This document shows, one piece after another, positions 18,214 to 22,225 of a stretch of 35,710 nucleotides of DNA. A program made the translations under genes and the position numbers. This DNA comes from Fervidicoccus sp. (GTDB lineage Archaea; Thermoproteota; Thermoprotei_A; Sulfolobales; Fervidicoccaceae), in NCBI GenBank assembly GCA_002899805.1, contig POCB01000075.1, forward strand, positions 1-35,710, read 5' to 3'. Every line of letters starts with the position of its first letter. Positions within the stretch are counted from its first letter, which is position 1. The notes beneath the pieces are model-generated. The model saw only the letters and a program-made list of their open reading frames with translations, was not told the origin of the DNA and ran no database searches.

Positions 18214-18630
18214 TCACTTCAGAGCCGTAAACATGGAGCTCCTTGTTGCTTTCAGTCCAGGTTCTCCGTGTTTTACAGATTTTGTTGTAGGAGAGAACTC
18301 TCCTAGTCTTTTTCCCAGCATTTCAGGTGTTATCTTCACTGGAATGAATTCTTTACCATTGTAAACAGCAATGGTTAAACCGAGCATCTCTGGTAATATT
18401 ATCATGTTTCTCAAATGTGTCCTTATAACCTTCTTAGATATCTTTCTAGATCTTCTTATTTTTTGAAGAAACTTAATCTGCTCAGGAGTGAAACCCCTCA
18501 ATATGCTCCTTCTTTCTCGGGCCGGAAATAGCTTTACCAAATCATCCATAGGTATGTCTAGTAGTTTATCTATACTGTAACCTCTATATCTTATTCCTTT
18601 CCACTCGCTATCGATCTCTATGTCACTCAT
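18214..18630 (-). CDS. rps19: Ribosomal protein uS19
   Basis: This 138-aa archaeal uS19 has [80 protein letters not shown] and the end [20 protein letters not shown]. It would normally follow uL2 directly. Here about 2.9 kb (three genes) separate them, and uS19 has its own leader with promoter-like elements and a hairpin. Confidence 0.95.
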
Positions 18631-18665
18631 AGCCAGCTTCCCTTCAAATTTTTTATTTAAGCATC

Positions 18666-18729
18666 AGGTCCTTAGGGACCTAAACCAATTTAAACTTGCG
18701 TTAAAAGGTTTTTGATTCCCGGTTTATAA
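18666..18729 (-). promoter_or_regulatory. uS19 promoter and palindromic leader element
   Basis: Reading toward uS19 there are two TATA-like elements: CTTATAAAC at about 18721-18729 and GTTTAAATT at about 18689-18697. Then comes a perfect 6-bp inverted repeat with a 4-nt loop, AGGTCC-CTAA-GGACCT (18681-18666). With a TATA-to-start spacing near 26 nt, the repeat is at the transcript 5' end or inside the leader. It could be an RNA hairpin or an operator at the start site. The uS19 ATG lies 36 nt further on. Confidence 0.55.
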
Positions 18730-18744
18730 GTCTCACCTTATCTG

Positions 18745-20115
18745 CTAGAAATCTCTCAAAAAGATTTTAGACTCCGAATAATCCATCGGATAGATCTTCA
18801 CTCCGGGATCGAGAAGTTGTTTAAGTTGGGAAATGTGTTTTTCGATTGTAAACAAAGTTATCTTGACATTTTTCTTCTCAAGTCTATTTATAGCAGTTAT
18901 ATACGATTCATCAGCAATGGTTTGCTCCATATCGCTTATTACGATAAGGTGGTCTCCCGGTCTCAATGTATTTTCTAGTTTCTTAAGGGCTCTGGTTATA
19001 TTTGTATAGCCAGAAACACCTGATTTAATTATCTCCTCAATCAAGTATCTCTTTGAGTGCCATCTCTTGAGAGAAATCGGTTTGATATCTTCATCAAACA
19101 AGTAGATTTTTCTTATGCTATAGAAGAGAGAAGCTACAAGCATTACAGCTTCGGCGTAGTGCTTCCTCATGCTATCGCTCTTGTCTACAAGAACGACTAC
19201 CCCTCTGCTTTTTTTCTGATCCACGTATATTGGTACAGGATAATTGCTCCTCATGGAAAGAAAAAGCATTTTCCTCAAATCCAATCTCGAGGTTTTTTCT
19301 CTCGTCCTCTTTTTTCCTTCTCTAGTCCGCGAGACCGCTACAGAAATGAATTTTGAGGATAAATGCTCTGCCAGAGACTTTTTGCCAGAAAGGATCAAAA
19401 ATCTTATTACGTCTATGGCGAATTTCTCCCCTATCTCGTTTGAAAGTATTGCGAGGGCATGTGGGTCCTCTGGATTCACAACGAGTTTCTCAACAGCCTT
19501 TTCCACCAAGTTGTACCTTTTTCCGATCGAGAGTCCTTCCTTATTATCATATATCCCTTTCCTTTTCTGAGAGTTTTTGGCTAGCTGGTCTTCAAGCATT
19601 TCTATGTAGCCATGGTTACCGGTTCTATAATAATTCCAGAGAGTTTCGACTAATCTGTATATATTCAGTTTTTCTACGTTTTCTGTTGTGTCCAACTTCA
19701 TCCTTTTCAATTTTTTCATGCTCAGTTTTTCTACTTCCTTCCACGATAGCTCTGTTTTTTCCTTTTTTCCTGCAACATTTATGCTTTTGTTTGAACGAAT
19801 TTTTCTCCTATAATCGTCGACAATCCTGGGGCTCTCACTTCCCAAACTTCTTTTTTCTTCTGCTGAGAGAAAAGCTTTCTCGAGCTTGATAAAGTCGTTC
19901 TTCTTTTTAACGAAGACGCCCTCAAGGACTTTGAACAATGGAAAATAACTATACTGGCTAAGGGTTTTTGCTGTCCTATATAGCCTTATTGCTCTCTCAA
20001 TCTGGTCAGTGCCTATCTTAGTTCCCATGTCCCGCATAGCATTAGCAATCTTGGTTATTCTGATAATTTCATCCTGAACTTCTGAAAGCTCATCTGAGTT
20101 TCTTTTGCTCTCCAT
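18745..20115 (-). CDS. VWA-domain protein (MoxR partner)
   Basis: This 456-aa protein has an alpha-helical, basic N-terminal region (1-300) and a C-terminal von Willebrand A domain with a complete MIDAS: DKSDS (311-315), T371 in SGYTNI and D395 in VISDMEQT. VWA proteins of this kind partner MoxR-type AAA+ ATPases, which are thought to act as chaperones in metal-cofactor or complex assembly. It lies 11 nt after the moxR-like gene, so the two are an operon. The client is unknown. It is not a usual member of the ribosomal cluster. Its base and codon use do not look obviously different from its neighbours by eye. Confidence 0.85.
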   Translation of the reverse strand: MESKRNSDELSEVQDEIIRITKIANAMRDMGTKIGTDQIERAIRLYRTAKTLSQYSYFPLFKVLEGVFVKKKNDFIKLEKAFLSAEEKRSLGSESPRIVDDYRRKIRSNKSINVAGKKEKTELSWKEVEKLSMKKLKRMKLDTTENVEKLNIYRLVETLWNYYRTGNHGYIEMLEDQLAKNSQKRKGIYDNKEGLSIGKRYNLVEKAVEKLVVNPEDPHALAILSNEIGEKFAIDVIRFLILSGKKSLAEHLSSKFISVAVSRTREGKKRTREKTSRLDLRKMLFLSMRSNYPVPIYVDQKKSRGVVVLVDKSDSMRKHYAEAVMLVASLFYSIRKIYLFDEDIKPISLKRWHSKRYLIEEIIKSGVSGYTNITRALKKLENTLRPGDHLIVISDMEQTIADESYITAINRLEKKNVKITLFTIEKHISQLKQLLDPGVKIYPMDYSESKIFLRDF

Positions 20116-20126
20116 TTCTATGACCC

Positions 20127-21092
20127 TTAGCCTGGAAGATGAGACTCGATTATTTCCAATACCAAACTCTCTTCTTCGGGACGTTTTATCAGAACTGCCT
20201 TGGCCACATCAATTAGATCTTCCCTCGTGACTTTACTATGGCTTCTCAATTTAGCTATCCTAGCTCCTATTGCCATCCATCTCACCATGTCAGCAACCCC
20301 AGGCTTATAGAGGAGATCGCTCTTCCTCATTTCCTCAACTGCTTTCAATGCCGCATTCATCGTAAATTCATCATAGAGCTCGAACGTTTCTCCCAGTCTG
20401 AGCTTAAGTATTTCGAGCTCTTTGTTGAAGCTCGGATAGCTGAACGTTACTCTCACTACCCTTCTCAGGAATGCATCGCTCAACTCATTCTGAGCTAAGT
20501 CGTCTGGATTACTGGTAAAAATGATCTGGAACCCTTCACCAAGCGACCTGTAAACTCTCTTGAGCTCTGGAATTATAATCCTTCTTTTATCTATTATGTC
20601 CAATAGCAAATTCTGAAACTCTTCACTGCTTCTTCTTATTTCATCGATTAAGACGCCGCTATCTAGTATAAGTGCTGCGAGAAGAGGTCTCGGTATAAAT
20701 GATTGCTCGTTGAAGCCCTCCCGATATGCCCTCAAAGGATGAAAATCTCCTATTACTCTATATTCATCGTAGTTCTCACTGCACGGGAGAACGAAGGCTT
20801 TTCTTCCAGCCCAGAGGCTGAGAAGAGCTTCACCTATTTCGGTTTTTCCTGTACCAGGAGGTCCCTCAAATAGAACAGGTATACCTTCTATGAACGAAGA
20901 ATATACCAGTGTGATCATGTCTTCATCCACAATTAACTTGTATCTTTCTCTCAGTATTCGCTTTGCCTCTCTTGGATTCCTGACAGCTTGGATTCTTTCG
21001 TAAGCCCTATCGTAAATTTCATAGACCTTTTCGACGATCTGGTCTTTCTCCACCATGTTGTCCTTTATCTGGTTCGCAGACATTTTTTTCAC
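20127..21092 (-). CDS. MoxR-type AAA+ ATPase
   Basis: This 321-aa AAA+ ATPase has Walker A GPPGTGKT (77-84), Walker B GVLIDEI (146-152), a sensor-1-like IIFTSNPDD, and the arginine-finger region LSDAFLRRVVRVTFSYP. SFIPRPLLAALILDSG and EFQNLLLDIIDKRRI match MoxR/RavA relatives. By family it uses ATP to remodel or activate a target together with a VWA protein, encoded 11 nt downstream. A TATA-like GAATTAAATTTT near 21128-21139 could drive the pair. The location between uL2 and uS19 is unusual. Confidence 0.87.
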   Translation of the reverse strand: MKKMSANQIKDNMVEKDQIVEKVYEIYDRAYERIQAVRNPREAKRILRERYKLIVDEDMITLVYSSFIEGIPVLFEGPPGTGKTEIGEALLSLWAGRKAFVLPCSENYDEYRVIGDFHPLRAYREGFNEQSFIPRPLLAALILDSGVLIDEIRRSSEEFQNLLLDIIDKRRIIIPELKRVYRSLGEGFQIIFTSNPDDLAQNELSDAFLRRVVRVTFSYPSFNKELEILKLRLGETFELYDEFTMNAALKAVEEMRKSDLLYKPGVADMVRWMAIGARIAKLRSHSKVTREDLIDVAKAVLIKRPEEESLVLEIIESHLPG

Positions 21093-21156
21093 TTTATAAT
21101 CCTTTGCTCTGAGAAGACAGGAAAGGAAAATTTAATTCTTTAATAAAGAGTTCACT

Positions 21157-21411
21157 TCAAACGTTTATATAGTCTACTTTTATTCCCTTATCTTTCCCTA
21201 AAATAGATGCTAATGCTTCATATATTTTCGCTTCCAACCCAGGCTTCAAAGACTCACTCTTGAATTCAAGATATCTGAATTCTCCTATGAATGACTTATG
21301 TTCGATTGGTTCGATACCAACAATTTCCCTTAATATCTCCTTCACTTTCTCATGTTCGCTCTCATAAAAAGATGTGTAGAAAACTCTATACGCTTTAACC
21401 GTTTTTACCAC
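21157..21411 (-). CDS. Small hypothetical protein (84 aa)
   Basis: I do not recognise this 84-aa protein. It starts GTG at 21411 and reads MVKTVKAYRVFYTSFYESEH, then EILREIVGIEPIEHKSFIGE, with a predicted beta-alpha-beta-beta-alpha-beta character and a length suggestive of a small ferredoxin-like or RNA-binding fold; that is inference from the pattern only. It lies between uL2 and the MoxR-VWA pair on the same strand. A promoter-like TTTTTAATTATA (21455-21466) is about 45 nt upstream, after the uL2 stop. Confidence 0.6.
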   Translation of the reverse strand: MVKTVKAYRVFYTSFYESEHEKVKEILREIVGIEPIEHKSFIGEFRYLEFKSESLKPGLEAKIYEALASILGKDKGIKVDYINV

Positions 21412-21454
21412 CTGCGGTCTCAGTTTGCACCCTTCATCATGAAGTTAATTCAGG

Positions 21455-21466
21455 TATAATTAAAAA
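21455..21466 (-). promoter_or_regulatory. TATA-like element upstream of the 84-aa gene
   Basis: The motif TTTTTAATTATA on the minus strand lies about 45-55 nt before the GTG at 21411, in the 76-nt gap after uL2. It could be a promoter for the inserted 84-aa gene, and its T-run could also end the uL3-uL2 transcript. No experimental basis. Confidence 0.35.
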
Positions 21467-21487
21467 CGATCATTCCGCGAGGAACTC

Positions 21488-22225
21488 TCACATTGTTCTC
21501 TGGACTTTTCCTTTTCTCCTTCCAGTCCTCCTTGCAGCTATATGCCCAACCTTCCTTCCGGGAGGAGCTCTTCTCGATACAGTGGTGGGTTTGCTCTCTG
21601 ACTGGTGGCTTCCTCCACCGAAGGGATGAGAGACTGCGTTCATTGCTACTCCTCTAACCTTCGGCCAAGGTCTTGATTTCGCCTTCCATTTATAATAAGA
21701 GTTGCCAGCTTTCATCAATGGTTTTTCTATTCTTCCTCCACCGGCTGCTACTCCTATCGTTGCTCTCGCTCTGGCATCGACCTCTTTCACCTTTCCACTC
21801 GGAAGAACAACGGTAACTGTGGTCAGGGATTTGCCCGTTATCTGCGCATATCCTCCTCCCGTTCTTACAAGCTTTCCTCCATCTCCCGGACGAAGTTCGA
21901 TATTAAATATCTGCGTTCCCTCTGGGATTGCTGAGAGAGGTAGTATATTCCCATTGGAGATTTTTGCGCCAGGTCCCATTTCCACAATCTGTCCGACATA
22001 GCTCCCCTCAGATGCTGGTGAGTAGAAGATAACACCATTTTCCAGCTTAATCTCAGCGAGAGGTGTCCATCTTCCAGGATCATGAATAATGTTAGTTATT
22101 ATCCCTTTGAATGTTTTATCTGAAGGAAGCTCTGGATACTTTGCTGGAGCAACTCTCAAATGAGTAGGAGCTCTGAACGTAGGAGAACCTCTCCCCTCTC
22201 TCTGCGATAGAATCTTCTTTCCCAT
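21488..22225 (-). CDS. rpl2: Ribosomal protein uL2
   Basis: This 245-aa uL2 of the peptidyl-transferase centre begins GKKILSQREGRGSPTFRAPT. It has an OB fold and an SH3 domain, with DPGRWTPLAEIKLENGVIFY, NGNILPLSAIPEGTQIFNIE, and the conserved C-terminal loop WPKVRGVAMNAVSHPFGGGS containing the functional His. The basic tail RAPPGRKVGHIAARRTGRRK follows. It lies 11 nt after uL23. Confidence 0.96.
   Translation of the reverse strand: MGKKILSQREGRGSPTFRAPTHLRVAPAKYPELPSDKTFKGIITNIIHDPGRWTPLAEIKLENGVIFYSPASEGSYVGQIVEMGPGAKISNGNILPLSAIPEGTQIFNIELRPGDGGKLVRTGGGYAQITGKSLTTVTVVLPSGKVKEVDARARATIGVAAGGGRIEKPLMKAGNSYYKWKAKSRPWPKVRGVAMNAVSHPFGGGSHQSESKPTTVSRRAPPGRKVGHIAARRTGRRKGKVQRTM

Follow-up and report, generated by a model that had tools for sequence, protein, structure and literature searches.

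MoxR-type AAA+ ATPases encoded next to proteins with a VWA domain are widespread, and few of these pairs have known clients. The way in which they work is shown by NorQD structures, which have also been compared with midasin (PMC13036017, PMC9976466); these structures reveal a finger of the VWA protein in the AAA+ pore and a twisting action, the authors themselves drawing the parallel with midasin (PMC13036017). The window analysed here, a stretch of 35,710 nucleotides from Fervidicoccus sp. taken at its full length, carries a pair of this kind among ribosomal protein genes. As in NorQ/NorD and CbbQ/CbbO, separate genes encode the small AAA_5 ATPase and its VWA partner, whose MIDAS is complete; unlike in those systems, no nitric oxide reductase or Rubisco genes lie alongside, and the context is ribosomal. 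The VWA protein falls above the cut-off of VWA_CoxE, the family of CoxE from CoxD/CoxE, but only its VWA region matches and no CO dehydrogenase genes are found nearby. Midasin (Rea1/Mdn1) shares the AAA_5 ATPase, the MIDAS and the ribosome context, and it gives the highest summed PDB sequence score; however, midasin unites six AAA domains in a single giant protein, the window pair shows no affinity for any particular one of these domains, and in profile comparison the MIDAS domains of the two do not match. The archaeal MoxR/GvpN-VWA pairs of a predicted surface or secretion system are likewise AAA+ and VWA gene pairs, but in that system the VWA partner is a secreted protein with links to surface proteins, and such neighbours are lacking here (PMC5898192). 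Ro60/TROVE resembles the VWA protein of the window in having a helical part followed by a VWA domain, and it occupies top rows of the fold search and gives a weak profile match, but it superposes poorly (rmsd of about 20 Å over the whole chain) and no TROVE match was found in Pfam. A text search of the literature recovered MoxR-VWA pairs in several settings and no linkage to ribosomal protein genes, with subscription papers and some preprints outside its scope.

The locus and its two proteins

The minus strand of the window encodes, in this order, uL3, uL4, uL23, uL2, an 84-residue protein (orf84), the MoxR-type ATPase, the VWA protein and uS19 (Table 1), as established from the open reading frame table and the sequence, and uS19 is followed on the same strand by uL22, uS3, uL29, a ribonuclease-P-like gene, uS17, uL14 and uL24. 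The names of the ribosomal genes were read off the translations and agree in the loci of all relatives. The sequence-only reading, in which three same-strand genes separate uL2 from uS19 and the AAA+ and VWA genes lie 11 nt apart, holds on both counts; the other gaps are 76 nt between uL2 and orf84, 64 nt between orf84 and MoxR, and 114 nt between VWA and uS19.

Table 1. Coordinates of genes and candidate elements; positions refer to the window unless another locus is named.
Feature	Position	Strand	Remarks
uL2	21488-22225	minus	upstream flank of module
C/D-box-RNA-like element	21412-21478	minus	5' of orf84; GGAATGATCG...CTGA...ATGATGA-agggtgcaaa-CTGA-GACCGC
orf84 (84 aa)	21157-21411	minus	GTG start
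MoxR-type AAA+ ATPase (321 aa)	20127-21092	minus	GTG start; Pfam AAA_5
VWA_CoxE-type adaptor (456 aa)	18745-20115	minus	Pfam VWA_CoxE; helical N-terminal part
TATA-like element CTTATAAACC	18721-18730	minus	about 15 nt past VWA stop; candidate uS19 promoter
Hairpin GGTCC-CTAA-GGACC	18667-18680	minus	uS19 leader
uS19	18214-18630	minus	downstream flank of module
Cas4-like nuclease gene, L065	8499-9197		also in L066, L067
Cas4-like nuclease gene, L144	5503-6180		
orf84 of G006, L142	7316-7561		

The ATPase matches Pfam AAA_5 above the cut-off (3.8e-18), and its Walker A motif, Walker B residue D150 and sensor-1 residue N195 are invariant in an alignment with 21 relatives; the match and the intact motifs together place it in this family. 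Its best single-domain relatives in PDB are CbbQ and NorQ, at about 30 bits. The NCBIfam equivalogs GvpN (46.1 bits against a cut-off of 266.8) and MadB (81 against 475 bits) were not reached.

The adjoining co-directional gene encodes a protein matching VWA_CoxE at 7e-10 and 39.1 bits, against a cut-off of 26.4. Its MIDAS is complete (DxSxS-T-D), comprising D311, S313 and S315 of the DKSDS motif together with T371 and D395, all of them invariant in the alignment of 19 relatives. Both the complete MIDAS and the identification of a MoxR-VWA pair, as proposed from the sequence, are thus borne out by the domain matches and the invariant motifs. The AlphaFold2 model of the VWA protein has a mean pLDDT of 75, mostly above 90 in the VWA part, and generic VWA domains, NorD of NorQD and Ro60 are among its listed fold matches. 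In family f1, to which the window belongs, the protein is about 200 residues shorter than in other families (403-456 compared with up to about 700 residues). It changes much faster than MoxR; within the genus, VWA proteins are 53-55% identical, against 86-90% for uL2 and uS19.

Distribution, gene order and descent

Protein searches over 214 genomes of the order identified orthologues of MoxR in 95, mostly 54-78% identical, and the VWA protein in essentially the same genomes. The pair occurs in families f1, f3, f4, f8, f10 and f11; we tentatively take f1 to be Fervidicoccaceae, f3 Acidilobaceae/Aeropyrum, f4 Desulfurococcaceae, f8 Pyrodictiaceae and f9 Sulfolobaceae. It was not found in families f2, f5, f6, f7 and f9, in genus g36 of f4, in genus g13 of f3, or in genome G006 of f1; three further weak MoxR matches in f9 have far lower scores and look like paralogues. 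An even sample of the phylum (398 genomes) yielded two more genomes with an orthologue, G518 and G522, from other lineages of the same class, after which matches fall to about 127 bits or less. A scan of named genomes returned two orthologous loci and one distant bacterial match.

More than half of the genomes of the order, complete ones included, lack the pair. In genus g36 of f4 and in f9 (L145-L147), uL2 and uS19 adjoin directly, about 40-135 nt apart. These empty sites occur in genomes without MoxR and VWA orthologues; ribosomes can thus be made without the pair, and nothing speaks more strongly against a core role in their assembly.

To compare its position where the pair is present, the coordinates of MoxR, VWA, uL2 and uS19 were combined, and only genomes whose contigs allow judgement were counted; long loci show the resulting gene orders directly. 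In f1, f3, f4 and f11, uS19 lies directly 3' of VWA, co-directional with it and no more than about 370 nt away, in 61 of the 63 resolvable genomes (5/5, 25/27, 29/29 and 2/2, respectively). The gene for uL2 is directly upstream of MoxR in all 27 resolvable genomes of f4 and, if orf84 is disregarded, in four of the five module-bearing genomes of f1, which keep it beside the MoxR-VWA-uS19 block; in f3 it has been relocated elsewhere while that block stays together. Family f8 is more varied, with uL2-uS19 convergent to VWA in nine genomes, uS19 convergent to it in a tenth, and uL2-uS19 upstream of MoxR in three further genomes; uS19 is also convergent to VWA in f10. The two genes of the pair are tightly coupled: 24 of the 25 loci have a possible VWA start codon between -26 and +19 nt from the stop codon of MoxR, with several 4-nt overlaps. 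Recurrence in many genomes puts the arrangement far beyond chance. The functional link to ribosomal genes suggested by the sequence-only reading gains support from a tightly coupled pair that is found beside uS19, or in its vicinity, across six families.

In the MoxR tree, f1, f3, f4 and f11 each form one supported clade, f8 is not split by supported branches, and all groups together take eight changes, the least possible, which fits vertical inheritance of an old gene pair. The other part of that reading, an insertion breaking the standard gene order, is not supported as a recent event: MoxR-VWA-uS19 occurs in every module-bearing genome of f1, nearly all of f4 share the arrangement, and the tree fits vertical descent. 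The synteny comparison across relatives, which the sequence-only reading had itself named as the check, shows an old arrangement typical of the lineage and not peculiar to this genome. The pair is therefore an old, vertically inherited one with a conserved ribosomal neighbourhood.

Traces of an older gene order are visible upstream of the pair. In f3, f8, f11 and the sister-lineage genome G522, a distance of 3 to 7 kb separates MoxR from orf84 on its upstream side, and the isoleucyl-tRNA synthetase gene ileS fills it; G522 has orf84, ileS, MoxR, VWA and uS19 in the same order, and ileS is missing from the site in some genomes of f3 and f11 (L144, L152). The older order was likely orf84-ileS-(cas4-like)-MoxR-VWA-uS19, and in the family of the window ileS is no longer at the site and orf84 adjoins uL2. 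The bracketed gene encodes a Cas4-like PD-(D/E)XK nuclease and lies between ileS (or orf84) and MoxR in f3; no other CRISPR genes were found among the open reading frames read in that stretch.

orf84 and the uS19 leader

The product of orf84 has no Pfam, NCBIfam or PDB match. Its AlphaFold2 model has a ferredoxin-like beta-alpha-beta-beta-alpha-beta fold (pLDDT 92.6), for which the fold search returned no specific relative in PDB, and two candidate identities, an RNA-binding protein of the DUF54 type and a ubiquitin-like ligand of the MIDAS, were rejected on these grounds. Homologues near MoxR or ileS are encoded in f1, f3, f8 and f11 and in one sister-lineage genome. G006 has neither MoxR nor VWA, yet its uL2 and orf84 genes still adjoin. 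The tie between orf84 and the pair is therefore not a strict one, and orf84 may serve uL2 or the ribosome instead.

The window shares the C/D-box-RNA-like element 5' of orf84 with L050 and L051 and, in weaker form, with L052 and L053. Rfam gave only sub-threshold C/D-box matches for it, the window having no match at the gathering thresholds, and no convincing 23S target was found in two relatives. A search for rRNA in the genome from which the window comes found none, which may be due to the incomplete assembly (79% complete).

Between VWA and uS19, the TATA-like CTTATAAACC is conserved in four members of the family (the window, L050, L051 and L052), which makes a separate promoter plausible and suggests that uS19 may begin its own transcript. 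The hairpin in the uS19 leader keeps its stem and varies in its loop in the congeneric window, L050 and L051, with no covariation, and is absent in L052; it could take part in leader regulation of the uS19 operon.

Function of the pair

Very probably, the MoxR-VWA pair works as a remodelling machine driven by ATP. A MoxR-type AAA+ ATPase, presumably assembled into a ring, and a CoxE-like VWA/MIDAS adaptor would be made together, probably from one mRNA. By analogy with NorQ/NorD, whose mechanism we transfer to this pair by inference, the ATPase would contact the adaptor and twist or pull it, and the metal site of the adaptor's MIDAS would grip the client through an acidic residue. The pair has belonged to a cluster of translation genes, probably arranged as orf84-ileS-cas4-like-MoxR-VWA-uS19, since the ancestor of the order at the latest and has been passed on in that place. 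The best single guess for the client is a part of the translation apparatus, for instance a ribosomal assembly intermediate, to which we give a probability of about 0.4. Many complete genomes of the order lack the pair, which weakens the case for a role in ribosome assembly, one of the possibilities raised by the sequence-only reading; ribosomes in general therefore do not need it. The candidate uS19 promoter, which would split the transcripts, and the fast evolution of the VWA protein relative to uL2 and uS19 also count against a ribosomal client, and it may be that VWA stays linked to uS19 through nothing more than strong expression or slow decay of gene order.

An enzyme client is nearly as probable. 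Like CoxD/CoxE, NorQ/NorD and CbbQ/CbbO, the pair might assemble or activate a metalloenzyme or some other complex, the ribosomal site offering steady strong expression and being kept by descent. The VWA protein is of the CoxE type, a patchy distribution suits an accessory client, and the cas4-like neighbour indicates that genes unrelated to translation share this neighbourhood; moreover, the characterised prokaryotic two-gene MoxR-VWA pairs of which we are aware act on enzymes or membrane complexes (PMC9976466, PMC3893208). However, none of the loci examined has an enzyme operon with an obvious metal cofactor immediately next to the pair. A small edge goes to a translation client, since the genes that remain its neighbours throughout several rearrangements are those of translation, and the linkage to uS19 has outlived these rearrangements.

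The translation reading has a more specific form, which we consider unlikely: in Desulfurococcales-type archaea a two-gene AAA+/MIDAS machine, encoded within the ribosomal protein cluster, would remodel ribosomal particles in the manner of midasin, having arisen independently from MoxR-CoxE stock, and orf84 might regulate it or be its third subunit.

It is improbable that the pair belongs to a stress-response or conflict (defence) system of the MoxR-VWA ternary type. MoxR-VWA modules are known in such systems (PMC7159879), and bpMoxR gives a weak Pfam match below its cut-off. PADLOC models, however, produced nothing beyond noise (MoxR had two weak matches at around 1e-3, and neither VWA nor orf84 had any), no third, toxin-like partner is present, and the fixed chromosomal place, vertical descent and translation neighbours point away from defence.

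Orthology with midasin (Rea1/Mdn1), or direct prokaryotic ancestry of it, is more improbable still. Midasins are the top PDB sequence matches of MoxR (1e-21 to 4e-26), and the AAA+ plus MIDAS layout and the ribosomal gene context are the same; but that score sums several AAA domains, the best single one reaching 29.6 bits against 31.3 for CbbQ, the profile search with the VWA alignment did not find the midasin MIDAS domain, and the 50 fold matches listed for the VWA model include no midasin. Because MoxR is no closer to midasin than to CbbQ and the VWA profile misses midasin, kinship was rejected and the resemblance is one of analogy. Least credible of all is a recent insertion or mobile element, bringing its own promoters and splitting the uL2-uS19 operon of this genome, an explanation that the empty uL2-uS19 sites and the TATA-like elements flanking the module might favour and that was rejected because relatives across several families share the arrangement and the gene tree is congruent with the families.

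For a client in the translation apparatus, the conservation of the pair beside uS19 in a large part of an archaeal order offers a concrete and testable candidate, the ribosome. If this is correct, it would be the first prokaryotic MoxR-VWA pair known to us to act on ribosomes, in parallel with midasin; if it is wrong, the locus still shows that conserved ribosomal protein neighbourhoods can hold unrelated genes for a very long time.
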